From: a virus
Strand: one strand, 5' to 3'
Virus record (IMG/VR): IMGVR_UViG_3300034104_000588
Location: 1-23,148 of that record
DNA length: 23,148 bases
The notes under the pieces were generated by a model. That model searched no databases, was not told the origin of the DNA, and worked only from the letters and a program-made list of their open reading frames with translations. Shown here piece by piece: positions 3,800 to 17,098 of this stretch. The number at the start of each line of letters is the position of its first letter. Within the stretch, counting starts at the first letter, position 1. Position numbers and translations under genes: made by a program.

Positions 3800-6277
3800 T
3801 TATCCTCGTGCCGCGTTACGTTCTAATTGATGCATGAGCGCATACATCTTTTTCGCGCCCTCGCGACGACTGCCATTCCCAGCGCCGCGCACGGCGCGGG
3901 CGGTCATGACAAACTCACCGTCGGAAAGCATAGCGGGGATATCATCAGAGGTCTCGGTCCCCGGTCCACTGATCTGGCCGATACGTCTAGGATAGCCTCC
4001 CTGTGCCAATGCGGCAATACCTCCCATATTGAAATAGGTAGGCTGGGTATAGGCCATTGGGTTGTAGCCAATGTAACTAGGCGTGGCTACTCGGATATCT
4101 TCCATGGTCTCCGAGGGGGACCATGCGGAGGAGCCAATAATTTCCCCACGCTCGTTGTATTGAACGCCCGGCAATCCTTGGATGTAATACGCAGAAGGAT
4201 TATCCGATAGATCAATCGGCTGACGCATGTCTTTTGCAAACTCAGTTTCTGGTGGGGGTTTTGGGGTAAACCCACCTGCCAATCCTAAAGCAGTAATGCC
4301 TGCTGCTACCCCGGGACCGTAAGTACGAAGCATTCCGGGGGAAGGAGGGGTAAGTTCGGTTTTTAATGTTTGTAATGCAATATCTGGAGATACCCCTTTA
4401 TCAACAAGCATTTTATATTGCGGATTATTTATTAGGTCTGCGCTAGTAGGTGCTGCTGGAGTACCGGGGAAGAATAGATCACCCAAGCCTCCTTTTAGTT
4501 GCTCATAGCCTTGGGAGAAATTGCCTTTGGCAATATCCATCACACCGCTACCGGCCCGGCTCAAAGAAGCTCCTACGCCCGGAACACCGCCCGTGCCGCC
4601 CGGTGCGGCTCCCCCTGCTGCGCCTGCAGGAGCGGCAGGAATATTGGGCATCTCCACTGCGCCCATTCCCGCTGGATACCGCAACGTATCCGTACCTAAA
4701 CCGGGCTGGAAGGAAGTTCCCGCAGGAGGTCTTACGCCTACTTTCCCTGCCGCACTGGCTAAATCGTACATGGCATCTGGCGCAGCGCCAGACAGGCTAG
4801 GTTGGGCAAGGGGGGAGCCACCTGTATAACTTGACCCACCCGTAGGCCCTGCAGCGGAAGCAGGCTGTACCGCGCCTTGTGTTACTAACTTAGCCGGGCC
4901 AAGGGGCACTTCAAGATCAACCAAGTTCCCGTCCGCCCCAACCACCGTCGGACGGTTGGTTGCTGCAAAAGACTGCTCATACACACGACCATCTTTCATA
5001 ATCGTCTGTTTCACAATCTCTCCGGGTCTTCCGGGAGCCGTATTGGCTCTTGCGATTTGCGCCTCATCAATGTCTGGGCTGCCGAACTTTGCTACGCGGG
5101 CGATTGCATCATCCGCCTCAGCCGCAACCGCAGTTGTTCCGCGTGACGCGGCAGTCGCCGCATCTGCATTGGCTTTTGCTGGAGGTACTCCCTGTGCATA
5201 AGCAATCGTTCCAGCAACAGCCCCTTGTATCAGGCCCCCTTGGACGGCTTCTTTAAGGTTTTGTCCTTGTAAAAGTCCTGCGCCTGTGCCAACCACCGCC
5301 GCGTTGGCAGCAGCTAACACCGTAGGATTACTAATAAATTGACCAGTATATTTGCCAACAAAATTAGAAACAGGTCCCCCCGGCGCACCGGCAAAACCAA
5401 CCACCGAGTTGATCAAAACATCTTTTAGACTTCCGCCAGATAGCGCAGTCACCGCACCAGAGGCAAGACCGGCTGCTACGGGGGCGGAGGCTAAGCCTAG
5501 TCCTGTAATCCCAAAGGCCCCCGGTCCGAGGACCGTGGCAAGACCAATCGTGGCTACGATCCGACCAATTGGGCTTTTTACAATTTCTTTGGCAACATTA
5601 ACAACGCCTTTAACTACGTCTTTAACGACATTGACAGCACCTTTGACTACGCCAGTAACGGCTTTTCCTACTCCTGTAACTAATTTGCCAATAGCTTTAA
5701 ACGGATTCCAAAATTCAGGCAAGCCAGTTACTGGGTTAATGGTTCCCGAACCCCCACGCGATTTCAACAGCCGCATTTCCGCAGGCGTAATATGCGCCAG
5801 CATGGTGTCACCGTTACGACCTTGGCTGGCCACGAGCCGCGCTGCTTCAGCAATGCCCCCACGGGCAAAGTTTTGAGGAGGCGGCATCATCATGCCGCTG
5901 CCGGTATCACGCGAACGCTGCTCATCTAACAATGCGGCAAGGATGACGCTTAAAAGTTCCTCGTCATACTCTTCCGGAAAAACCCCCTGCTCTAAATCCC
6001 CTTCCCGAATGGCTTGCGTTAAAGTTTCTTTATAGCGATCAGGGTTGTCATATAGATATTGGACAGCATCAATAAGCGCTTGTAGTTGTTCATCGTCTAA
6101 CTTATCAAGGCCCGTGCGCATTTGCGCCATGACTTCTTGGACTTCCAAGTCCACGTCCGGGCGAGCTTGCTTGAATCCCTGCCGCACCGCGTCGTAGGAA
6201 TCCATGTAGCTCAATTGCGGCATAGCTGCTTGCTGCCCTTCTGGCAGCGCCATGATGCCTTGTTCGTTAGTCGCCAT
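3800..6277 (-). CDS. 825-aa virion protein with amphipathic helix repeat and phage C-terminal GEFV motif
   Basis: Residues 1-125 are acidic and helical. Residues 137-180 hold a Phe-x-x-Gly-Gly-Ile motif followed by a Gly-Asp-Thr-Met-Leu-Ala-His-Ile segment and a double Gly. Residues about 192-240 form a Lys/Val-rich amphipathic stretch with Lys at 198, 205, 212, 219, 223, 230 and 234. Residues about 238-360 are Gly/Ala-rich and hydrophobic, and could insert in a membrane. A Pro/Gly/Ala-rich middle follows. The C-terminus (749-825) carries Phe-x-x-Gly-Gly-Ile, then Gly-Pro-Gly-Thr, then Asp-Gly-Glu-Phe-Val-Met, a pattern I know from the C-termini of phage tape-measure and other virion proteins. 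The start has AGGAAA upstream. An internal protein that disturbs the host membrane during DNA entry is a reasonable inference; a tape-measure-like role is the alternative. Confidence 0.8.
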   Translation of the reverse strand: MATNEQGIMALPEGQQAAMPQLSYMDSYDAVRQGFKQARPDVDLEVQEVMAQMRTGLDKLDDEQLQALIDAVQYLYDNPDRYKETLTQAIREGDLEQGVFPEEYDEELLSVILAALLDEQRSRDTGSGMMMPPPQNFARGGIAEAARLVASQGRNGDTMLAHITPAEMRLLKSRGGSGTINPVTGLPEFWNPFKAIGKLVTGVGKAVTGVVKGAVNVVKDVVKGVVNVAKEIVKSPIGRIVATIGLATVLGPGAFGITGLGLASAPVAAGLASGAVTALSGGSLKDVLINSVVGFAGAPGGPVSNFVGKYTGQFISNPTVLAAANAAVVGTGAGLLQGQNLKEAVQGGLIQGAVAGTIAYAQGVPPAKANADAATAASRGTTAVAAEADDAIARVAKFGSPDIDEAQIARANTAPGRPGEIVKQTIMKDGRVYEQSFAATNRPTVVGADGNLVDLEVPLGPAKLVTQGAVQPASAAGPTGGSSYTGGSPLAQPSLSGAAPDAMYDLASAAGKVGVRPPAGTSFQPGLGTDTLRYPAGMGAVEMPNIPAAPAGAAGGAAPGGTGGVPGVGASLSRAGSGVMDIAKGNFSQGYEQLKGGLGDLFFPGTPAAPTSADLINNPQYKMLVDKGVSPDIALQTLKTELTPPSPGMLRTYGPGVAAGITALGLAGGFTPKPPPETEFAKDMRQPIDLSDNPSAYYIQGLPGVQYNERGEIIGSSAWSPSETMEDIRVATPSYIGYNPMAYTQPTYFNMGGIAALAQGGYPRRIGQISGPGTETSDDIPAMLSDGEFVMTARAVRGAGNGSRREGAKKMYALMHQLERNAARG

Positions 6278-6348: not shown

Positions 6349-7743
6349 CTATCGGCTAACTTCTTCCCAGTCAAGGGAAGCCAAAATTGTGGAACTGTTG
6401 CTTGAAGCCGCAGCGGTTAGTGTTAGCTCGAAAGGCGTTCCGGTTATCCCGTTCCGCTCTAGCTGGTTGGCAAACAATGCCTGCTTCAAAATATCAACGG
6501 TGGTAGAGCCTTGGTTTGATCCTTGTGTGTAACCCTGCGCTAGGATGCGACCACCAGTAAACGAAGTACCCGTAATGTTGTATTCAACGCCAGAATTAGT
6601 ACCAACGCTTACCCAAGTCCCGCCAGTTGTAGTGCCAGAAGCCACCACCCGCCATTCGTAGTTCACGTTATTGCTTAATGCCAGAATAGACGCAGCTGTC
6701 AATATGACAATAGCGTCCAACCGTGTCGTTTTTAGGCGCAACGAAACCACGGGGTAGTAAGTTCCCGCCGTAGCCAGTGATGTCGGCGTTGTAATGGGCG
6801 TGCCGATAGCCTGTTGCAAACCGGTTAATGCAAAGCCGCCCTCTGAGATCACCGTTGAGCAAACTTGTTTTAGTGTGCTTGCCCCCGACGTTGCTGCCGT
6901 GTTTTTCATCTCATACCGCAATGGCAGAGAAGCGGTAGTGATGTACGTCGTTGTGGTCAGGTTGGCATGGTTGAAGTTATGCGCCGGGACGAACTGCCCA
7001 TCGATGATGAACCCCATACGAGCGGTGCCAAGACCTAGCCACTCGATGTCCATGTAGAGAATCTGCGACTTGGACAAGTCCAGCGTAATACCAGAAGGCC
7101 CTGTGCCATCCAGCGGGTCTTGGTTCCAGTTAGCTTGCGCCACTTGTGTATTTACAACGACCCCAGAAACAGAACTGCGCTCCACGAAATAGGCGCTTGT
7201 CCCGTCACGTTCAATATAAAAGCCGTTAGCAGTACCGTAATAACCAACACGCTGACGTAGATTTGCTTTCGCCGTACCCATGACAAACGTATTCATCACC
7301 AGCAAGCTCTTGCCCGGCTGATACGCAAATATCTTTGTGGTTTCTCTTACTACCTCATCATTGTTTGCGCTACCCACCGTCAAATTGACTAGCCCCTCGT
7401 CCGCGCTAAACGTCGCAGCCGCCGTTCCGGTAGTGCCTGTTGACCAGAGATCGTTATCTGAGTATCGGTGCGAAGAGTCAAACAGCGTAAACGGCTCACT
7501 TACCCGTAGCCGCCCAAACGCGTCTAGGTTTGTTCCACCTAATGCAACAGGTACAGATCCATTTGTCGAAGCCATAAGTGATAACTGACCTATCAGGGTA
7601 TCAAGCGTGTTGAAATACAACCGCAGAATATTGTTGAGTTCATCGTGGTACCTACGGTTATATTCCTGCGGTGCATACGGCAATGCAGGCGCTTTTGTTC
7701 TTAAAAGCGTCTCAAAGTCAGTTACAACGACAGAAGTCGTCAT
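6349..7743 (-). CDS. Phage structural protein, probable tail/neck-associated (464 aa)
   Basis: Residues about 20-55 are rich in Tyr, Arg, Asn and Leu and look helical, a probable docking segment. The rest is Thr/Ser/Gly-rich, typical of a beta-sandwich: a Gly-Arg-Leu-Arg-Val-Ser-Glu-Pro-Phe block near 76-84 is followed by alternating strands to the end. There is no signal peptide or membrane segment. The ATG overlaps the stop of the nozzle-like gene (ATGA at 7740-7743), so the two are probably translationally coupled and made in fixed ratio. I recall homologues annotated only as structural or hypothetical in aquatic phages. A lectin-like or head/tail decoration function is possible, but no binding site can be pointed to. 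Structural assignment is firm from context; the exact place in the virion is unknown. Confidence 0.75.
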   Translation of the reverse strand: MTTSVVVTDFETLLRTKAPALPYAPQEYNRRYHDELNNILRLYFNTLDTLIGQLSLMASTNGSVPVALGGTNLDAFGRLRVSEPFTLFDSSHRYSDNDLWSTGTTGTAAATFSADEGLVNLTVGSANNDEVVRETTKIFAYQPGKSLLVMNTFVMGTAKANLRQRVGYYGTANGFYIERDGTSAYFVERSSVSGVVVNTQVAQANWNQDPLDGTGPSGITLDLSKSQILYMDIEWLGLGTARMGFIIDGQFVPAHNFNHANLTTTTYITTASLPLRYEMKNTAATSGASTLKQVCSTVISEGGFALTGLQQAIGTPITTPTSLATAGTYYPVVSLRLKTTRLDAIVILTAASILALSNNVNYEWRVVASGTTTGGTWVSVGTNSGVEYNITGTSFTGGRILAQGYTQGSNQGSTTVDILKQALFANQLERNGITGTPFELTLTAAASSNSSTILASLDWEEVSR

Positions 7744-9677
7744 CGACCACCATCCGGCCTAATGTCCAATTTAGGCACACCTAACTGCCACTGCGTACCC
7801 AGCGTGTCTGACTCTATCCGAAACGCCATCTGCCTTCCACGCACTCGCGTATACACTAACTGCGTAAACTCCTGCACCTCGTACGTTTTTTCAGTGTTGT
7901 AATTCTGCGTGGACTCCACCGTCGGCGCATTCGATACCTTATACGGCGCACCGGGGTTCTTCCTCGGACGCATCTTAAACTTCACCGCAGGGTCCGTCGA
8001 ACTCTGTGTCATCGAGCCATTAAACGTGATATCAGGAATCATCCGCCAGACAAAGCCATACTTATCGCCATTGGCAATATCAAAGTCAGCCGACTGGATA
8101 TACGAACTAATTGCACTTGGCGGGTTAGTTGTCCCATCATCTACCGCCGCTTCGTGGAACACGATTATGTTGCCTAATGTCGCGGCTTGCGGATAATCAC
8201 GCAACGGACTATCCAACCATGCAGTACGTGACAGATTGCCGTAATACCACGCATTATCTACGTAGTTGTAGATCACATAGCGATCTATCGTATTTGAATC
8301 CTCAGAGCAGTAATACCACCAGACTTCATTAAACCGCTCATTGGTGCCAGCAAAGAACTGGAACCCCTGATCAAGATTAATGTCGTCATACACATACTTC
8401 CAAACCGAACACACCAACGGTTCTACGCGCCCTGAGTAGATGTAAAACTTATCCGTACCCATCCAAAACGTAATGCCAGACCCTGTTGCAATCGCATTTG
8501 GACTGACCAGAGAAATATTATCGGCAATCAGAGTAAAACCATACACGAGCGGCGGTCCCAAATACTGCATTGAGTACAACGCCGCATCCGTCCAAACCAA
8601 AATCTCCTGCCGCGTCTGTAACGCACCGATAATGTCCGAGCCCCGGGATAAACGATAACTACCTGCTTGGTTGGTCGCAGTAGGTGTCCAATCTAAATAA
8701 TCTTCTTGCGCACTCCAACGGATCAACATCGGATCAAACGCCGCCGTGCCATACGCACCATAATCACTCGACCCAAATGCAATCACAATCCGCGTCGCAT
8801 CCGACACCAGTATTTGCGATATCTGAGAAGGCACATCGGTGGCAGATACCAGTGTTCCTCGCGTACCATACGCAGGGACAGACCCTGACCCCGGTTGCCA
8901 CAAATACAGTGCGCCACCCCTTGGAGAAAACAACAAATCTTCCCCATAATTGGATTGACTCCACAACCGCAACTGGTTCCCGAATCCCGAACTAAAACCT
9001 GAGCCCCACGTGCCACGGCTCCATGTACCGGTGCCCCAGCCCGTGCCCACCGTATAAATGGCCGCACCTGTATTAATCTGATAGGCCCCTACTACCGCTG
9101 CCCCGCCATTACCAGAATCCGACGCATTCGATAACACCGCCGCACCGGGAGCGCCGATAGGAGAAACTACACGTGCTTGGATAGTGTAGGTATTCGCATT
9201 GACTACCGTTACCTGATATTCCTGTTGCAAAATCGCTTGCGTGATATTGCCACCAAGGCCAGAAGCATCCACACCACTAAACGTCACAAAGTCCCCGGTA
9301 TTACAACCATGGGAAGTGTCCGTCACGGTAATCGTAGAAGAGAAAGGCGCAACAGTGACCGCCGAAAACGTGACATTCCCTGCAGCCGTCGTATTCCTGA
9401 TAGGCGTAATGTCGTAATACACGCCACCATCTTCTACATAAAACTTGAGATTCGTACCTACCCCAAGAATATTAAAACCTTTAAGCGTTACCCAATTCCA
9501 CAAGGACCGCGCAACACCCAAAAAGGTATTGTAAGAAAGCGCCGCCCAACCACCTATTTTCTCAGGGAAGCCCCCGCGAAAACGTATTTTGTCACAGTCA
9601 AACCATCCTCCTTTACCAGCAAGGGTGGTGACTTCCTTATTAAGACCGGGACGAAACTGTAGTGGTTGTAGCGGCAT
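7740..9677 (-). CDS. Tail nozzle-like structural protein (P22 gp10 / T7 gp12 type, tentative)
   Basis: The 645-residue protein opens with a Pro-Leu-Gln-Pro-Leu-Gln-Phe-Arg-Pro-Gly segment and a Gly-Gly-Trp-Phe-Asp-x-Asp-Lys-Ile-Arg-Phe-Arg block, recalled as strongly conserved in uncultured podovirus-like phages. Residues about 95-195 form a Thr/Val-rich insert resembling an Ig-like domain. From about 330 to 520 there are repeated blade-like segments: Trp-Thr-Asp-Ala-Ala-Leu-Tyr, then Phe-Trp-Met-Gly-Thr-Asp, then a Trp-Trp-Tyr-Tyr cluster. These suit the beta-propeller of nozzle proteins such as T7 gp12 and P22 gp10. The start has AGGTGAG upstream. A nozzle would close the tail channel below the adaptor ring, consistent with the gp4-like and SU10-type genes upstream. 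The family assignment rests on pattern memory and needs a profile search. Confidence 0.7.
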   Translation of the reverse strand: MPLQPLQFRPGLNKEVTTLAGKGGWFDCDKIRFRGGFPEKIGGWAALSYNTFLGVARSLWNWVTLKGFNILGVGTNLKFYVEDGGVYYDITPIRNTTAAGNVTFSAVTVAPFSSTITVTDTSHGCNTGDFVTFSGVDASGLGGNITQAILQQEYQVTVVNANTYTIQARVVSPIGAPGAAVLSNASDSGNGGAAVVGAYQINTGAAIYTVGTGWGTGTWSRGTWGSGFSSGFGNQLRLWSQSNYGEDLLFSPRGGALYLWQPGSGSVPAYGTRGTLVSATDVPSQISQILVSDATRIVIAFGSSDYGAYGTAAFDPMLIRWSAQEDYLDWTPTATNQAGSYRLSRGSDIIGALQTRQEILVWTDAALYSMQYLGPPLVYGFTLIADNISLVSPNAIATGSGITFWMGTDKFYIYSGRVEPLVCSVWKYVYDDINLDQGFQFFAGTNERFNEVWWYYCSEDSNTIDRYVIYNYVDNAWYYGNLSRTAWLDSPLRDYPQAATLGNIIVFHEAAVDDGTTNPPSAISSYIQSADFDIANGDKYGFVWRMIPDITFNGSMTQSSTDPAVKFKMRPRKNPGAPYKVSNAPTVESTQNYNTEKTYEVQEFTQLVYTRVRGRQMAFRIESDTLGTQWQLGVPKLDIRPDGGR

Positions 9678-9942: not shown

Positions 9943-10257
9943 TTACCAAGGAAGCGGTGGCGTAACCACCGGCGGGTTAATCTGATTTTCAATCTGTTGT
10001 GCTACAGCTTCTTCTGTCACATCCTTGTCCACACCATTCGCCCACACCCAAGTCAACACTTCTTCTTGGGTTAGGTCTTCATAAGGCGTAAAGCTGCCAC
10101 CGCCATAGGCAACACCGCAAGTGCCATAGACATTAGTGGAGTAATCACCATTGACACCCGTACACGACCAATGAACGGTAATGACAACATCCGCATTGCC
10201 TTGAGATAGCGGTAAGCAGTCCATCGCGGTCACAGCCCAGTTAAATGTTGTACTCAT
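9943..10257 (-). CDS. Conserved phage protein, DUF7936-like (104 aa)
   Basis: The first 60 residues look like beta strands and include Asp-Val-Val-Ile-Thr-Val-His-Trp, Gly-Asp-Tyr and Tyr-Gly-Thr; three Cys lie at about 14, 32 and 47. Then come a Phe-Thr-Pro-Tyr-Glu-Asp-Leu-Thr segment, a helix, and a Pro-rich tail ending Pro-Pro-Leu-Pro-Trp. This layout matches what I recall as DUF7936, common in uncultured phages. The ATG overlaps the stop of the tail-fibre gene (ATGA), suggesting coupled translation. That position fits a fibre-assembly partner, in the way small genes follow fibre genes in many phages, but no such function is shown. Confidence 0.7.
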   Translation of the reverse strand: MSTTFNWAVTAMDCLPLSQGNADVVITVHWSCTGVNGDYSTNVYGTCGVAYGGGSFTPYEDLTQEEVLTWVWANGVDKDVTEEAVAQQIENQINPPVVTPPLPW

Positions 10258-13200
10258 TTTTTACCCTCCAATGCGGCGACTTTCGCCTGTAGTGTTTCAA
10301 TCATTTGCTGTTGTTCTTGGATGCACTTCATTAACGCGTACTGAAGGTCGGTCTGGTAGATCGACAGGCGCATCTTAGGTTCTTCTGCCGTACCCCAGTT
10401 CGATTCCATGACTAACTCAGGCGCAACATCCTGAACTTCTTGCGCTACAACACCCAGCGTTAAGCCGGGGTCTTCTTCCATGTTCTGATCGATGTAGTTG
10501 AAGGTCTGCACGGGGATAGCGCAAATCTTCGACAGATAGTCACCAGCCGGAGCAAAGTTGGTCTTCTCGCGGCGGTCAGAAAGGTTGACGTTATTGCCGC
10601 TGAAGTTGGCTATGCCACCGTTGGAGCGAACTTGGAATCGCTGCGCGGTAGCATCCCGCGCCTCAATGAAAGCATTGCCTGTCCCGTTGGGTGTGGCTCC
10701 GAATGAAATTGCAATACCGTAATTGTTGGCCGCTGTGCCGCTTGAATTACGGACATGGCAGGTAAAGTCGGCTGCCGTTTGGTCAGCAAAAAGCCGGTTT
10801 GCTGATGTCCACGACAGCCCCGGATTAGCCGATGCCCCCACCAGCAGATTACCGCTGGAGTCGATACGGGCGCGTTCGGTGTTGTTGGTGAGAAAGGCGA
10901 GAGCTTTATTCGCTTCAACAGCTAATCTAACGATTGCTCCATTTTCTATATAAAACTCTCTTACGCCACTGTCATAAAAACTAATATAAGGCGATCCAGT
11001 GCCTTCAAATCTAGCAACTTCGTCAATTGCCCCAGAATTAACATGAAGCCTTGTGCCCGGCGAACTCGTACCAATCCCCACGTTGCCGGAGGAGTCGATA
11101 CGCATACGCTCCGTAGGCGAACTCGCACCGTCTGCGGTCGTGGTGAAGACCAGCCGACCGGGCATATCGTTGGTGCCGGGGGTGCCGTCTACTTGAGCAA
11201 CGATACCTGCCGCCGAGATCATTCCTGTGCCATCGGCACCTTGGAAAAGCAACGTCCCCAGCGAATCGCCTGAAACTACTGCCGTAACGCTACCGGCTGT
11301 TGTGCCACGAGACTTACCAAACTGAATTGCTGATCCCGCTGTGTCGGCTGTGTTTCTGACAAAACCAGCGCCAGCAGCGTAGCCACCTGTTACACCTTCG
11401 ATTACTAACCCGTAGCTATAGCCACTTCTTACGCTTGTCGTACCAACCAGCAACCGCCCACTCGCATCCAGCGTCATCGCCTGTGTCCAAGTGATCGCAG
11501 TTCCAGCTGTGCCAGATGGAGTATTCAACCAACGATGCGTATCGCCAAAGTGATCGTAACGAGATGCCGCCGCAGTATTGCGATAAATCCAATTTGTGCC
11601 GTTATAAAAAGAGTTGGTGGCAAATGTTGTCGTATTTGTTCCACCTCCGGGCGTATTTACAATCCCAAGGGTGTACGTTTGCAATACAGCATATGATGGG
11701 CTTCCCCAAGCACTCGGCGTAACGCCCAAGCCAAGGTTGCCGGAGGAGTCGATACGCATACGCTCTGTAGGCGAACTACCACCATCCGCAGTCGTACTAA
11801 ATACCAACCTGCCGGGCATATCGTTCGTGCCGGGAGTGCCATCTACTTGAGCGAGGATGGAAGCCGCATCAAGCATATTTGTGCCATCTGCGCCATCAAA
11901 ATTTATAACTCCAAGAATATCGCCAGACGCAACAATAGTCCTTGAACCAAGAGCCGCACCGCGAGATTTACCAAAAGCAAATATAGGGCCGTTTGCGTTT
12001 GCCGTATTCCGAACCATCGAGGCATTTGTAGAACCATTAGCCGTCTCAATTTGCAAATTGCCAGTCACACCGCCGTTGCTTAAACTCTGGGATGCTCCCG
12101 TTCCAATTAAAAAAGCATTAGGCACTACAGACGCTACTAAGCTAGGCGCAACAGTGCCACCGCCTACCCAAAATTGCCCACCTAAATTAGCGGTTGTATG
12201 CTGCCTAATAGAAAATTCAGGGTAAGTGTTTGCGCCACGAATCCAAGAAATCTCAGGTCTATCGGCAGCGTCAGCATTAAAAACCAGTGACGGAGTTGTT
12301 GCCACCGAATTCCAAGCAACACCCTGACTGTTAAACTTTGTCGCAGCGAAAGTTCCTTTGTCTATTACTTGAAATCCTTGGTTTAAATGTAATTTTGCCG
12401 CTACCGTAGTCGTCCCAATCCCCACGTTGCCGGAGGAGTCGATGCGCATGCGTTCGGTATACGTTTCAGCGCCCTCTGATCCGGTAGCGTTGCCAAATAT
12501 AAGGTTTGGACCATCCGTACCAATGTATCCGCCACCAACCGATGTTGCTGACCTCCACCAAAGGGTATATGCCCCAGCGCCCTGAGAAACCAAAGACCGG
12601 ACTGCTGCTCCGTTAGGCACGGCAGTTCTTGTTTCAGAAGCAAGTAAATAGCCCTTGAAGTAGTTCGCCGCCGTCCCCGACGCATAGATGTTCCACTTAT
12701 CCGTACCAGAGGAAACTGCTGAGCCGATGCCGTAGTTATTTGTTGCGCGTGTTTGGTCGGCGACAAAAATTCCGTACTGATTAGTTAGTGTGGAACCCGC
12801 GCCTAACGCAGCAAAATTACCAGCCAAAAACCCAACTGCACTGGTTATTGAAGTTGAAGCAGCCGTTGTGTTGTTAATTGAAGTAAACGCAGTCCAAGAA
12901 CCTGTCGTGGTGGTTGGTATAGTCTGAGTTACCCGCGCTGCATAAATATCAGCGGCTGTTCCTGAATGTGTGCCTTGTAAATATAAAGAAACAGCCGAAC
13001 TTGCTGCTGCGCCAACCCCCATATAACCATTCACCGTCACGGTGTCGGTAGAGGCATCGCCAAGCGTGGTGTTGCCGGTAATATTGGCGTTGCCCGCAAC
13101 AGAAAGTAGATTAGTGGGCGACAAAGTACCGATACCCACATCACCGGTTGCCGTCACCACAAATGGCGTTGCATCCGGATTTGCACTGTCCTCAACAAGG

Positions 13201-13703
13201 ATAGAATTTCCACTGCCCGTTTGCGTTACACGTAATGCAGGAGAAGACGAGTTGGCGGAAACCACCAAATTGCCACTAAACGCGGTCAAAGACGAAGCAA
13301 CATTCGTCCCATCCGCAAATATCATCGTGGTAGTCCCAGCAAGAACCGTGACCCCCGTGCCCGCCGCCGTCGTATTGCCTAATACCGTAGAACAATAAAT
13401 CGTCGCGTCATAAGCACTCGAATTACGAATGACGTAAAACTTCTCTGCCGGAGGAATGTAAACATTAAAAGCAGCGGAAGTCGTCGTCGTTAAATTGATG
13501 ACCATGTTGCGCGACTGATCCGCACCACCATCTACCGCCGTTAATGCTTGGTTGGCTGAAATAACACTTACCGACACATACCCTGAGATGGCATCCTCAA
13601 TCAACGTGCCAAGGTTGGTATTTGTCGTCGTGCCCCATGTGCCTGATTGCTCACCATTAGCAATCAACTCAATACGGAGATTAGGGGAGTATGTGCTAGG
13701 CAT
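10254..13703 (-). CDS. Tail fibre with C-terminal S74 self-cleaving chaperone domain
   Basis: This 1149-residue protein is the likely receptor-binding fibre. Residues 1-50 (with a Ser-Gly-Thr-Trp-Gly segment) look like the virion-attachment end. The shaft is Thr/Ser/Gly/Ala-rich and holds repeated Arg-Ile-Asp-Ser-Ser-Gly-Asn-Val-Gly-Ile-Gly elements typical of phage fibres. A 97-residue module occurs twice. The C-terminal 108 residues match the peptidase S74 / intramolecular chaperone family: a Ser-Asp-Arg-Arg-Glu-Lys-Thr-Asn motif places the Ser/Lys dyad at S1042 and K1047, and the end is a coiled coil. In known S74 proteins this domain drives trimer folding and then cuts itself off just before the Ser. 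ATG at 13703 has AAGGA upstream, and its stop overlaps the next start. Fibre and S74 identity are strong; the receptor is unknown. Confidence 0.93.
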   Translation of the reverse strand: MPSTYSPNLRIELIANGEQSGTWGTTTNTNLGTLIEDAISGYVSVSVISANQALTAVDGGADQSRNMVINLTTTTSAAFNVYIPPAEKFYVIRNSSAYDATIYCSTVLGNTTAAGTGVTVLAGTTTMIFADGTNVASSLTAFSGNLVVSANSSSPALRVTQTGSGNSILVEDSANPDATPFVVTATGDVGIGTLSPTNLLSVAGNANITGNTTLGDASTDTVTVNGYMGVGAAASSAVSLYLQGTHSGTAADIYAARVTQTIPTTTTGSWTAFTSINNTTAASTSITSAVGFLAGNFAALGAGSTLTNQYGIFVADQTRATNNYGIGSAVSSGTDKWNIYASGTAANYFKGYLLASETRTAVPNGAAVRSLVSQGAGAYTLWWRSATSVGGGYIGTDGPNLIFGNATGSEGAETYTERMRIDSSGNVGIGTTTVAAKLHLNQGFQVIDKGTFAATKFNSQGVAWNSVATTPSLVFNADAADRPEISWIRGANTYPEFSIRQHTTANLGGQFWVGGGTVAPSLVASVVPNAFLIGTGASQSLSNGGVTGNLQIETANGSTNASMVRNTANANGPIFAFGKSRGAALGSRTIVASGDILGVINFDGADGTNMLDAASILAQVDGTPGTNDMPGRLVFSTTADGGSSPTERMRIDSSGNLGLGVTPSAWGSPSYAVLQTYTLGIVNTPGGGTNTTTFATNSFYNGTNWIYRNTAAASRYDHFGDTHRWLNTPSGTAGTAITWTQAMTLDASGRLLVGTTSVRSGYSYGLVIEGVTGGYAAGAGFVRNTADTAGSAIQFGKSRGTTAGSVTAVVSGDSLGTLLFQGADGTGMISAAGIVAQVDGTPGTNDMPGRLVFTTTADGASSPTERMRIDSSGNVGIGTSSPGTRLHVNSGAIDEVARFEGTGSPYISFYDSGVREFYIENGAIVRLAVEANKALAFLTNNTERARIDSSGNLLVGASANPGLSWTSANRLFADQTAADFTCHVRNSSGTAANNYGIAISFGATPNGTGNAFIEARDATAQRFQVRSNGGIANFSGNNVNLSDRREKTNFAPAGDYLSKICAIPVQTFNYIDQNMEEDPGLTLGVVAQEVQDVAPELVMESNWGTAEEPKMRLSIYQTDLQYALMKCIQEQQQMIETLQAKVAALEGKK
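11070..12014 (-). repeat. Two copies of a 97-residue fibre module
   Basis: Copy A (12014-11724) and copy B (11360-11070) are each 291 bases and align without gaps. By eye about 70 of 97 residues agree, with near identity over the last 45 (Ala-Gln-Val-Asp-Gly-Thr-Pro-Gly-Thr-Asn-Asp-Met-Pro-Gly, ending in the Arg-Ile-Asp-Ser-Ser-Gly-Asn element). DNA is also similar there. The copies are 654 bases apart, separated by unrelated shaft sequence. Confidence 0.88.
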
Positions 13704-13713
13704 CGTCGTGTCC

Positions 13714-14925
13714 TTACGTACTTGTATCTACGTCTTGCCATGCCGGAGACTGTGTGTCCACTACATCCGACCAGCTTGACCCTTGGGTATTATCTACATC
13801 CAACCAGCCCGCAGACTGCGTATCCACTACCGCTGCCCACGTCATAGACTGCGTGTTATCTACATTCTGCCAGTTAGGGGCTTGACTGTCATCTACCGGC
13901 TCCCATAACAACCGCCGGAATAGCTCGTCCCGAGCTTCTGCCGATTCTGCAATAGACGCGAGGAACACGGCCGAGGCAGAGGACAGTTCTTGTCCCGTTA
14001 CCAACTCCTGTATCAGCGCATTAAACTGCGCCTGCGCGGAAACCGCGACCGATCCTGCTGCTGCTTCAGATACAGACGCACCAAACGCCGCCAAGGCCGA
14101 GGATGCATCCGATCCTGTACTAGATTCTGCTACTACCGCACCAAACGCCACCCCTGCTGAAGCACTGTCTGATGCATCTGCCTCTTCTGATACAGAGGCC
14201 ACATAAACAATCCCACCGACAACATTATCCGCGCCCTGCGCTCCTTCAGCAATAACTACCGAGAAACTTGCCTGCGCTGCACTGGTTTCCGATCCCTGCG
14301 CCCCTTCTACCAAGGAGCAAGAGAAAGCAGCCAAGGCACTCGCCGTATCTGATCCCTGCGCGTTCTCTGCAATATCCGCAAAAAACTCACCAAGCGCACT
14401 TGCCTGACCATCCGCCGTACTTGTCTCAGCCACCGCCGCATTAAACTCTGCGCCTGCCGAAACCGTATCCTGACCACTTACTGTCTCACTTACCGTTGCT
14501 TGGAATGCAATCTGTGCACTCACCGCATCGGCAGCCGTGGCCGTCTCAGAAACCGACACCGCAAAATCAGCATTCGCACTTGCCGCGTCCGCGCCAACCG
14601 CACTTTCACTGACTGCCCGGCTGTACGTCGTCGTCGCCGAAACCGTATCCTGCCCACTTACCGACTCAGCTATGCCACCAAAAACCTCGACCAAGGCACT
14701 AACTGAATCCCCTGCCGTAGTCGTTTCTGCAACACTCGTGCCAAATATTAGTAAAGAACTAACTGCATCCGTTGCGGTAGATGTCTCGCTGACCGCGCTA
14801 CCATAAACCACCCCAGAGGATGTCGCGTCACTTGCCGTAGCCGTGTCCAAAGCCGTTCGGTCATATACCGAACACCCCCAACCCGCTTGTCCCCACGTAC
14901 CGGAGCTCCATCCGCCTTCGGACAC
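13714..14925 (-). CDS. Virion protein built of 20-residue and 11-residue tandem repeats (403 aa)
   Basis: The start is GTG at 14925, three bases after the previous stop (TAA). Residues 1-24 are Trp/Gly-rich (Gly-Thr-Trp-Gly-Gln-Ala-Gly-Trp-Gly). Residues 25-344 are sixteen consecutive units of exactly 20 residues with no insertions. The pattern is Val/Ile, Ser/Ala, Glu at position 3, Asp at 9, Ser at 12, Ala at 13 and an aromatic at 17. Residues 345-399 are five units of exactly 11 residues with Gln at position 4, Trp at 8 and Val at 11. The repeats are strongly acidic, nearly free of Lys, Arg, Pro and Cys. This points to a long repetitive beta fold such as a fibre shaft or solenoid. It sits directly before the tail-fibre gene, so a fibre, spike or linker is likely. 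I recall loosely similar repeats in uncultured phages, with no function. Confidence 0.82.
   Translation of the reverse strand: MSEGGWSSGTWGQAGWGCSVYDRTALDTATASDATSSGVVYGSAVSETSTATDAVSSLLIFGTSVAETTTAGDSVSALVEVFGGIAESVSGQDTVSATTTYSRAVSESAVGADAASANADFAVSVSETATAADAVSAQIAFQATVSETVSGQDTVSAGAEFNAAVAETSTADGQASALGEFFADIAENAQGSDTASALAAFSCSLVEGAQGSETSAAQASFSVVIAEGAQGADNVVGGIVYVASVSEEADASDSASAGVAFGAVVAESSTGSDASSALAAFGASVSEAAAGSVAVSAQAQFNALIQELVTGQELSSASAVFLASIAESAEARDELFRRLLWEPVDDSQAPNWQNVDNTQSMTWAAVVDTQSAGWLDVDNTQGSSWSDVVDTQSPAWQDVDTST
13729..13893 (-). repeat. Five tandem 33-bp (11-residue) Trp repeats with 66-bp super-period
   Basis: The last four units alternate between an Asp-Asn-Thr-Gln opening and a Val-Asp-Thr-Gln opening, so the pair (22 residues, 66 bases) is itself repeated. 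Every unit has Trp at position 8 and Val at 11. Confidence 0.88.
13894..14853 (-). repeat. Sixteen tandem 60-bp (20-residue) coding repeats
   Basis: The units keep an exact 60-base period over 960 bases. Most are well diverged in DNA, but two segments 180 bases apart (around 14457-14485 and 14637-14665) are nearly identical. That suggests a more recent copying of a three-unit block. Confidence 0.9.
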
Positions 14926-15115: not shown

Positions 15116-15691
15116 TTATGCCGCATCAAGGCTGAACGTATACGTCACGTTCAACACGTCACCTGATACCACCGCGCGATCCCCCGGGGCTTGAAAATCA
15201 GAGGCCGAAAACAGTATGCCCGATGTGCCCGTGGCAACAGAACACAAAAACGCGCCAGCAATTGTGGTCGTACCATTCATCGTGAACTGCGCAGGTGACC
15301 CACTATTGCTGATCACCGAAGGATCTGCGGTAGTCGCCGCACCAAAGGTGACTGCTTTACGGTTACCTGTATAGGCCGTATCCTCTGTCCACCCAATATG
15401 AGAGGCAAGTGTATCGCCCGCAGCAAACACAGTACCAGAGGCAGGGCCTTGAACTAGACCAAGATACCAAGCAGCGGAATAGCCTACGCCGCTGAAGTAC
15501 TTGTCGTTCATGTCCTTCAAACCTTCATTGACCACCAAGTTCGGAAATTCTTCCGTCCACTTATGGTTGCCATCCTTGTCAAAGCATTCCATGCGAAACA
15601 CCCCTGCCGCTCTCGCTCTGGAAGAGGCTTCCGCTTTTTTTTCAACGACGCAGGAAACTGCATCATTCGCACGTGATTTTTCGATCTGCAT
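15116..15691 (-). CDS. Conserved phage protein, probable minor structural (191 aa)
   Basis: GAGG precedes the ATG by seven bases and the gene begins 8 bases after the previous stop. Residues 1-35 are charged and Ala-rich. Residues 33-61 hold Met-Glu-Cys-Phe-Asp-Lys-Asp-Gly-Asn followed by Trp-Thr-Glu-Glu-Phe-Pro-Asn-Leu-Val-Val-Asn-Glu-Gly-Leu, a segment I recall as widely conserved in uncultured phages. The remainder is Thr/Ser/Gly-rich with alternating strands and ends Val-Thr-Tyr-Thr-Phe-Ser-Leu-Asp-Ala-Ala. No catalytic motif or membrane segment is visible. Position among neck and fibre genes favours a virion component; the precise role is unknown. Confidence 0.72.
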   Translation of the reverse strand: MQIEKSRANDAVSCVVEKKAEASSRARAAGVFRMECFDKDGNHKWTEEFPNLVVNEGLKDMNDKYFSGVGYSAAWYLGLVQGPASGTVFAAGDTLASHIGWTEDTAYTGNRKAVTFGAATTADPSVISNSGSPAQFTMNGTTTIAGAFLCSVATGTSGILFSASDFQAPGDRAVVSGDVLNVTYTFSLDAA

Positions 15692-15699
15692 AATGCCCT

Positions 15700-16119
15700 C
15701 TACACTAGTTTGATCAAAGCAAATGTTGGGTTATCTGCCGGAAGGTCCAACACAAAATTCTCATTGACCGTTGTTTGGTTCATCCCAAAATTCAATACAA
15801 ACATCGCCTTATTGGCTTTGCTACTGTTGTAAATCAATGCTCCCGCCGTTGTAAACGATGTCCCCGCCCATGTAGGATTGTCAAAGCTTACGTAAGCAAT
15901 CCCATTGCCTTGGTTCACCGTCACATTCGTCAGCGTCAGGCCCCCTGCTGTATACCCCGTCCCAGATACCTCATTGGTCGTTGAATACACGGTAGTATCC
16001 GGACCGAGCGTCGCCAAACTCGTATACAAGGCAATCTTTAATACATCCGTATCAAGGTCGTGTTCGCCCAACAGCAGTTGCCGCTTGAAACTTGTCGTCC
16101 ATGTTTGCGTGATTGCCAT
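15700..16119 (-). CDS. Conserved phage protein, probable minor structural (139 aa)
   Basis: The ATG shares one base with the stop of the adaptor gene (TAATG), and the ribosome site is weak (GGTGAA), so translation probably depends on the upstream gene. The sequence opens Met-Ala-Ile-Thr-Gln-Thr-Trp-Thr-Thr-Ser-Phe-Lys, continues with Leu-Lys-Ile-Ala-Leu-Tyr-Thr, and is otherwise Thr/Asn/Gly-rich beta-type sequence with no Cys. I recall this family as common and unannotated in aquatic phages, usually next to the same 191-aa neighbour. A tail-completion or decoration role is inference. Confidence 0.72.
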   Translation of the reverse strand: MAITQTWTTSFKRQLLLGEHDLDTDVLKIALYTSLATLGPDTTVYSTTNEVSGTGYTAGGLTLTNVTVNQGNGIAYVSFDNPTWAGTSFTTAGALIYNSSKANKAMFVLNFGMNQTTVNENFVLDLPADNPTFALIKLV

Positions 16120-16769
16120 TAATTCACCGGATACTTGATTTGACCATCACGATACGTATCACCACGCTGCTTGCCATCACCAAGCTGCTTCAGTAGTGCC
16201 AACGCTTCCTTATACTTCCCGTCATACAGCGCCATTAAATCAGGCTCCCCCTTCATAAAGGTGTACGCCTCTACCAAGCTTCCATACAACAGCGCTGAAT
16301 CAAAATTGTCGCCTAACCACGTATTGTCTGCCGTTACTATCGATTCTGGATAATAGTAATAATGCAGTTCAACATCGTAAGATTGATCTGGCGTAGGCCC
16401 TAAAATCAAAGACAACTCTGTCGCAAGATTGGTCACTGGACCAAAAATACCGTAATACTTGGGGATAGCCTCGTAGCTTCCTGAAGGAAAAACTTCACGA
16501 ATGAAGTTCACATCCTTGTTCAACAAATATATGTAATCATTGTTGTCATCAATAACCGCCAGCGAATACACCGACAAAAAATCATTAGGTGTAGTCAAAT
16601 ACTTGTTGCCCGCTGTCAGATTGCCTTCCACATTCTTACGAAGGTTGGCTAACTGAACGGTGTTGTAAATGCGCTGCTCCGCCTGACGAACAATTGTGTC
16701 AAGTTGTGTGGAGGAGAACTCGTTCTCCGTGTACTCTTGAATAGCGTCGGTCAGTTCTGTGTAGTTCAT
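16119..16769 (-). CDS. SU10-type phage adaptor protein (head-tail connector)
   Basis: I chose the ATG at 16769, which overlaps the zinc-ribbon stop as ATGA; the open frame reaching 16877 would lie inside that gene. The 216-residue product begins Met-Asn-Tyr-Thr-Glu-Leu, followed by helix Ile-Val-Arg-Gln-Ala-Glu-Gln-Arg-Ile-Tyr-Asn at about 26-36. Further on are Tyr-Leu-Thr-Thr-Pro-Asn-Asp-Phe-Leu-Ser-Val-Tyr, then Leu-His-Tyr-Tyr-Tyr-Tyr-Pro-Glu, and a C-terminal helical part with Met-Lys-Gly-Glu-Pro-Asp. This agrees with what I know as the phage adaptor family named after phage SU10, which forms the ring between portal and tail. Its place right after the gp4-like gene supports a neck role. 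Confidence 0.78.
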   Translation of the reverse strand: MNYTELTDAIQEYTENEFSSTQLDTIVRQAEQRIYNTVQLANLRKNVEGNLTAGNKYLTTPNDFLSVYSLAVIDDNNDYIYLLNKDVNFIREVFPSGSYEAIPKYYGIFGPVTNLATELSLILGPTPDQSYDVELHYYYYPESIVTADNTWLGDNFDSALLYGSLVEAYTFMKGEPDLMALYDGKYKEALALLKQLGDGKQRGDTYRDGQIKYPVN

Positions 16770-17098
16770 GATATGACCACCGTTACATTGTTCAAAACAC
16801 CCGCTGCCGTTAATGGCTTTGCTACTGGAGCAGGCTGCATTCCTACTGATGCAATTGTAGAATCCCCACCCTGCCAAACCGATACCCTGACTGTAGAAAT
16901 CACATCTGGGCGCGGCTCATACACAGCAATCGGCTCATTAATCCCACGCTTTGGCTCAAGTTGTGGGTGCTTTGGTTCATAGCACTCCTGACAAACCTTG
17001 AACCCCGTCCATTCCTTCTTCAAATCTTTCAGCATGAACCGCTGACCGCACCGATCACATATGGCTAACGAGTATTTGCCTGTTGCATACCCCGCCAT
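16766..17098 (-). CDS. Small zinc-ribbon phage protein (110 aa)
   Basis: Residues 1-50 contain two Cys pairs, C14-x-x-C17 and C36-x-x-C39, 18 residues apart, the layout of a zinc ribbon. The rest (about 50-110) is a flexible Pro/Val-rich tail without recognised motifs. The gene starts one base after the gp4-like stop and its own stop overlaps the adaptor ATG (ATGA), so it is embedded in the neck operon. I recall similar short proteins at this spot in other uncultured phages. It might bind DNA or stabilise the portal-adaptor joint; neither is shown. Zinc binding is inferred from Cys spacing only. Confidence 0.75.
   Translation of the reverse strand: MAGYATGKYSLAICDRCGQRFMLKDLKKEWTGFKVCQECYEPKHPQLEPKRGINEPIAVYEPRPDVISTVRVSVWQGGDSTIASVGMQPAPVAKPLTAAGVLNNVTVVIS

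Follow-up and report, generated by a model that had tools for sequence, protein, structure and literature searches.

The stretch of DNA analyzed here, termed the window, is an IMG/VR virus record of 23,148 bases (IMGVR_UViG_3300034104_000588) from an uncultivated, short-tailed (podovirus-like) phage. An open reading frame on the minus strand (13714–14925, stop codon included) initiates with GTG and specifies a 403-aa repeat protein, and relatives of the protein share the start site as either GTG or ATG. The gene adjoins that for a 1149-aa tail fiber (10254–13703, minus strand) which matches tail-fiber PHROGs and bears a C-terminal S74 intramolecular chaperone (PF13884, E 2.5e-12). The fiber also contains a number of internal ERMRIDSSGNVGIGT-type repeats. 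On the opposite flank, two small genes (15116–16119, minus strand) for proteins of 139 aa (phrog_644) and 191 aa (phrog_8123) separate the repeat gene from an SU10-type adaptor gene (16119–16877, minus strand; PF24175, E 1.4e-23 over aa 37–237), for which the listed TTG codon may lie upstream of the true start. The two small genes occupy this position in nearly all relatives. The conserved order is adaptor, 139-aa protein, 191-aa protein, sometimes a 66-aa protein, repeat protein, and fiber, with all genes co-directional. Of the loci scored, 128 encode a homolog of the adaptor, 126 one of the 139-aa protein, and 125 one of the 191-aa protein; the repeat protein was matched in 128. This gene order suggests that the repeat protein is located in the virion, and the S74 fiber is its probable partner. 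The major capsid protein of the window is 75% identical to that of Pelagibacter phage HTVC023P and 73% identical to that of DSL-LC04. An 825-aa protein (3800–6277, minus strand) matches several tape-measure PHROGs through its C-terminus (aa ~759–802), within a module whose adaptor and nozzle otherwise are those of a short-tailed phage.

Residues 21–340 of the repeat protein (13906–14865, minus strand), which form a probable beta-solenoid rod, comprise 16 successive units of 20 residues with no insertions or deletions. Identity at a lag of 20 residues was 0.371 compared to 0.117±0.017 (maximum 0.181) in 2000 shuffled sequences. The gap-free array of 16 units had been recognized in a preliminary description of the window at 13894–14853, which is the same array in a register offset by four residues; the conserved positions 17, 3, 9, 12, and 13 listed there correspond to F/Y1, E7, D13, S16, and A17 of the register used here, and all are present. 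Position 1 is Phe or Tyr in 15 of the 16 units and position 7 is Glu in 15 and Asp in one, followed by position 13 (12 Asp, two Glu), Ser at position 16 (13 units), and Ala at position 17 (12 units). The conserved positions of the unit are F/Y1, A3, V5, E7, A9, G/A11, D13, V15, and A17. The extensive divergence between units that was remarked upon previously corresponds to a mean pairwise protein identity of 33%, and the near-absence of positive charge is equally evident: the array includes no Lys or His and only five Arg residues compared to 41 Asp and Glu residues, with a calculated pI of 4.05. Identity between units at the DNA level averaged 44% with a top value of 62%. Thus, the array is old and does not contain recent duplicates or expansions.

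A scan of IMG/VR with the repeat protein identified 54 loci, and scans with alignments uncovered more than 500 related stretches among the matches listed. Units were chained with a profile that permitted any spacing of at least 20 residues in 123 non-redundant arrays. The steps between units were of 20 residues in 1341 cases, 21 residues in 25, and 40 residues in 19, with few others; the 40-residue steps reflect one unscored unit, and the remaining odd steps are mostly multiples of 20 with the same origin. In those 21-residue units that were inspected by eye, the extra residue mostly was placed between D13 and the next F/Y, and the E7–D13 spacing appeared constant. The number of units ranged from 9 to 25. 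The strong length constraint proposed in the preliminary description therefore applies family-wide to the unit, which is nearly constant aside from the 21-residue versions in divergent relatives, but does not extend to the number of units. As had been anticipated, the protein has no credible match in Pfam, PHROGs, or NCBIfam: a Pfam search retrieved solely PF13538 (E 0.033) with a score far below its cut-off, and PHROGs (to E 0.1) and NCBIfam (to E 1) produced no matches, with the proviso that the composition bias of the protein can mask weak family matches. The family with its more than 500 environmental stretches is outside these libraries, and a published description of the 20-residue repeat was not found in literature searches. 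When 50,697 phage records were searched by tblastn, the low-complexity filter of which may conceal arrays, the window protein matched only the Trp tail of a DSL-LC04 protein (E 2e-3) and two divergent relatives had no matches. Bacterial and archaeal genomes were scanned with the single N-terminal peptide pattern G[TA]WGQAGW as query, and no relative was detected; PDB sequence searches returned weak matches only, mainly with designed helical repeats.

The array is bordered by two terminal modules that were overlooked in the preliminary description. An N-terminal aromatic triad, W6-x4-W11-x4-W16 (GGWSSGTWGQAGWG; 14878–14910, minus strand), precedes the first unit. Among 122 uncut, non-redundant relatives, the triad takes the form W-x4-W-x4-W in 96 and occurs as F/Y versions in 23, with exact five-residue spacing in all 119. 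The last unit is succeeded by a C-terminal tail (aa 341–403; 13717–13905, minus strand) in which six Trp residues are spaced exactly 11 residues apart. Tails in the family usually possess 3, 4, or 6 Trp residues, and 420 of ~434 Trp–Trp distances are of 11 residues. The numbers of 20-residue and 11-residue units showed no clear correlation (rho 0.17, p 0.067). Similar ends also are found on other rods. The WJZ48131.1 protein of DSL-LC04 and gp68 of HTVC023P resemble the repeat protein in the C-terminal Trp tail, in an N-terminal aromatic or hydrophobic triad, and in the proximity of the gene to a fiber-type gene, but differ in the intervening rod which consists of 22-residue TGVQ-type repeats without the 20-residue unit. 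At loci L052 and L054, the Trp tail is attached to other repeat or helix-like regions. The L052 tail (aa 249–299) matched PF12815, the Spt5 C-terminal nonapeptide repeat, barely above the cut-off (E 1.5e-5); this marginal score probably reflects a chance likeness of short Trp repeats and the assignment was rejected. A 1446-aa open reading frame at L172 (3025–7362) has the array and Trp tail behind a long Gly-rich N-terminal region without the aromatic triad. In gp53 of CRP-902 (L133, 19961–20887), the N-terminal part is like the product of a 110-aa gene in the window (16766–17098), and TGVAGTGAVG repeats are accompanied by a C-terminal W-x4-W-x4-W motif.

The triad recurs in the 645-aa nozzle protein (7740–9677, minus strand; phrog_3287, E 9.8e-59), whose profile matched the PDB entries 8zkk (‘nozzle gp16’, E 3.1e-19) and 9nwi_Y (E 5.2e-36). 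Besides the window, four named phages and most relatives conserve the W-x4-W-x4-W loop in this protein (~9006–9038). Among open reading frames of at least 100 aa on the forward strand of the array loci, only four others aside from the repeat protein and nozzle contained the triad, and these apparently are spurious frames. Covariation of the W-type N-terminal cap with the nozzle triad was considered, but the loci were too few for a claim to be made. In phage SU10, three nozzle tryptophans (Trp839, Trp847, and Trp857) form a star that docks the trimeric short tail fiber (PMC9509320). The SU10 loop and the triad described here are alike in that three aromatic residues are supplied by a single chain, and the loop is located in the nozzle which is the other triad-bearing protein here. 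However, the Trp spacings are 8 and 10 in SU10 compared to 5 and 5, the place in the nozzle is different, and the SU10 loop is internal to the nozzle whereas the triad here also is positioned at the N-terminus of the repeat protein. By analogy with SU10, even with its different Trp spacing, the end modules of the repeat protein may act as docks.

The structure of the repeat protein was predicted with AlphaFold2. A run with the single sequence yielded a helical model with 16–18-residue helices in each unit which carries little weight because the pLDDT was 42, with no residue above 70. As units 5–9 of the window protein were almost uncovered in the first alignment of 149 rows, its closest relative, L002 (82–83% identical), was folded in its place as a monomer with an alignment of 84 rows. 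The array of the L002 model was all-beta with a regular 20-residue period and two strands per unit, although the alignment includes register-shifted windows of arrays which may favor periodic contacts. Strands extend over positions 13/14–20 and 3–7, separated by a bend at positions 1–2 and a loop at positions 8–12. Mean pLDDT for the model was 66.6 and pTM was 0.59; ten-residue means in the array mostly were 64–85, compared to values mostly <60 for the terminal modules and ~41–60 for the C-terminal tail. The regular beta-solenoid with a 20-residue rung suggested in the preliminary description thus is predicted with moderate confidence when an alignment is supplied, but not in the low-confidence, single-sequence run. 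Odd positions in the unit are more conserved than even positions (~2.5 vs. 1.6 bits mean information), and the strongest couplings within a unit include those between residues i and i+2; both observations provide independent but weak support for a beta fold. Hydrophobic power was high at 72, 108, and 180 degrees, a pattern that does not decide the fold alone.

Right-handed solenoids were the top structures when the L002 model was compared by VIA-align, led by the S-layer protein RsaA (6z7p; Z 14.7, rmsd 3.0 over 206 residues) and including the HxuA secretion domain (4i84) and a Parabacteroides adhesin (4opw); across the three, Z scores were 14.3–14.7 with rmsd ~3 over 178–206 residues. The left-handed helices of LpxD and GlmU aligned with rmsd ~9.5. 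The handedness of the predicted solenoid is taken from these structural alignments. The resemblance to RsaA, HxuA, and 4opw is one of predicted architecture, whereas there is no sequence similarity (9–11% identity in the structural alignments) and the protein described here is phage-encoded with an exact 20-residue unit that features E7 and D13. Foldseek found no match for the L002 model in the PDB at E ≤ 0.001, and the best matches in its ‘viral’ library were uncharacterized proteins of uncultured Caudovirales phages. Four known classes of repeat were examined and rejected. The RTX beta-roll is built from GGxGxDxUx nonapeptides in an 18-residue turn, but the motif is absent from the unit profile and identity at lags of 9 and 18 was at background. 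The left-handed beta-helix has [LIV]-G-x4 hexapeptides in an 18-residue coil, compared to a period of 20 and a profile without the hexapeptide. Pentapeptide repeat proteins (A(D/N)Lxx) have the same coil length of 20 residues, but the array lacks a five-residue periodicity (lag-5 identity 0.095) and the motif is absent. Amyloids of the Curli/FapC type have Q/N ladders in repeats of 18–23 residues; the conserved residues here are Glu and Asp, and Gln and Asn are rare at conserved positions. A TxTxS row akin to that of insect ice-binding solenoids was considered, but is speculation.

Arrays were compared between closely related strains. Over 4.5 kb of upstream sequence, the window matches L056 at 94% identity, but the two do not align in the block 14853–14277 which forms the front of the array (16 vs. 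11 units). Identity resumes at 96.8% over 14277–13012, where the last two units and the entire tail are codon-identical; the middle of the S74 fiber gene is largely replaced, and identity is 92% from 10086 onwards. Among other pairs with upstream identity of 93–95%, array DNA identity was 58% for L142 and L161 (91% downstream) and 68% for L012 and L013, and L015 and L027 have 12 and 9 units, respectively. Arrays in many other strain pairs have not diverged. The median dN/dS was 0.22 for 180 pairs of equal-length arrays, which are not independent of each other. In pairs that are 70–97% identical, E7 differed in 1% of comparisons and D13 in 2%, and the frequency of differences was 0.143 at odd positions compared to 0.225 at even positions. 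Thus, the block replacement between strains combined with the low dN/dS and nearly fixed E7 and D13 residues indicates that rungs are swapped as blocks yet are held by selection. Recombination alone, without selection by the host, can yield divergence of repeat arrays.

The reading that is preferred, to which we assign about an even chance, is that the repeat protein is a modular beta-solenoid rod of the short-tail machine, swappable between strains, with docking ends at the adaptor or nozzle. This interpretation is favored because it covers the exact unit length, the free number of units, the order of modules, the gene order, and the strain variation. The array would be an acidic beta-solenoid with one 20-residue unit per rung in which the conserved residues line one side of the chain, leaving variable polar residues on the opposite side. 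The rows of E7 and D13 possibly bind cations. With an assumed rise of 4.8 Å per rung, the rod would be ~4–12 nm long for 9–25 units and 7.7 nm for the 16 units of the window. Recombination would add, drop, or exchange whole rungs so that length and outer faces vary among close strains while the fold is maintained. The N-terminal triad, which has the same form as the nozzle loop, would be one docking segment and the C-terminal tail, with its 11-residue Trp spacing, a second. The rod most likely would be situated at the adaptor or nozzle with the S74 fiber, either as a spacer or as a proximal part of the appendage, although we infer both its oligomeric state and its attachment. The variable faces would be open to the host surface, which the repeat protein may contact.

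The main rival to the solenoid rod, rather unlikely in our estimation, is a trimeric fiber shaft in which three chains interleave into a beta shaft, each layer accounting for 20 residues, similar to gp12, the proximal protein of the SU10 long tail fiber. Phage fibers usually are trimers, short repeats with alternating hydrophobic residues fit triple-stranded shafts equally well, and the gp12 gene of SU10 likewise directly follows that for the adaptor and precedes another fiber gene. However, gp12 is 786 aa in length and its first residues on inspection are unlike those of the repeat protein, and the monomer model already is a regular solenoid at moderate confidence. That the protein instead is exported or acts at the lysis stage, and merely is encoded within the structural block, is improbable: it has no recognized structural domain and proteomic evidence is not known for any family member, but the fixed position between adaptor and fiber among co-directional genes in nearly all relatives, and the restriction of the Trp triad at array loci to this protein and the nozzle, argue for a structural role. 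Two further possibilities concern the array itself. An alpha-helical repeat rod would agree with the Ala-rich composition, with the helices in the single-sequence model, and with the weak similarity of its profile to designed helical repeat proteins in the PDB, yet the low pLDDT of that model, the all-beta outcome with an alignment, the alternating conservation, and the prominent i,i+2 couplings make it very improbable. Least credible of all is a low-complexity expansion without precise structure; an Ala/Ser-rich composition and variable repeat number are what such an expansion would display, but unit length is exact across very divergent sequences, dN/dS is low, and E7 and D13 are near-invariant.

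The swappable solenoid rod can be extended to a broader and more doubtful proposal, namely that the protein exemplifies a virion connector of a new class, in which a single chain forms a beta-solenoid rod. The rungs of this rod would recombine and be interchangeable, and its aromatic-ladder caps, spaced by 5 and 11 residues, would dock fibers of three-fold symmetry. If this connector reading is true, the length of the appendage and its exposed face could change while the docking ends stay untouched. Should the end motifs prove to be docks, the triad would flag fiber attachment sites from sequence in short-tailed phages. More generally, the analysis predicts a fold, and proposes a role that can be tested, for a family that occurs on hundreds of environmental phage contigs and is not covered by the libraries searched, and links a hitherto unexplained repeat length to strain-to-strain variation beside the tail fiber.
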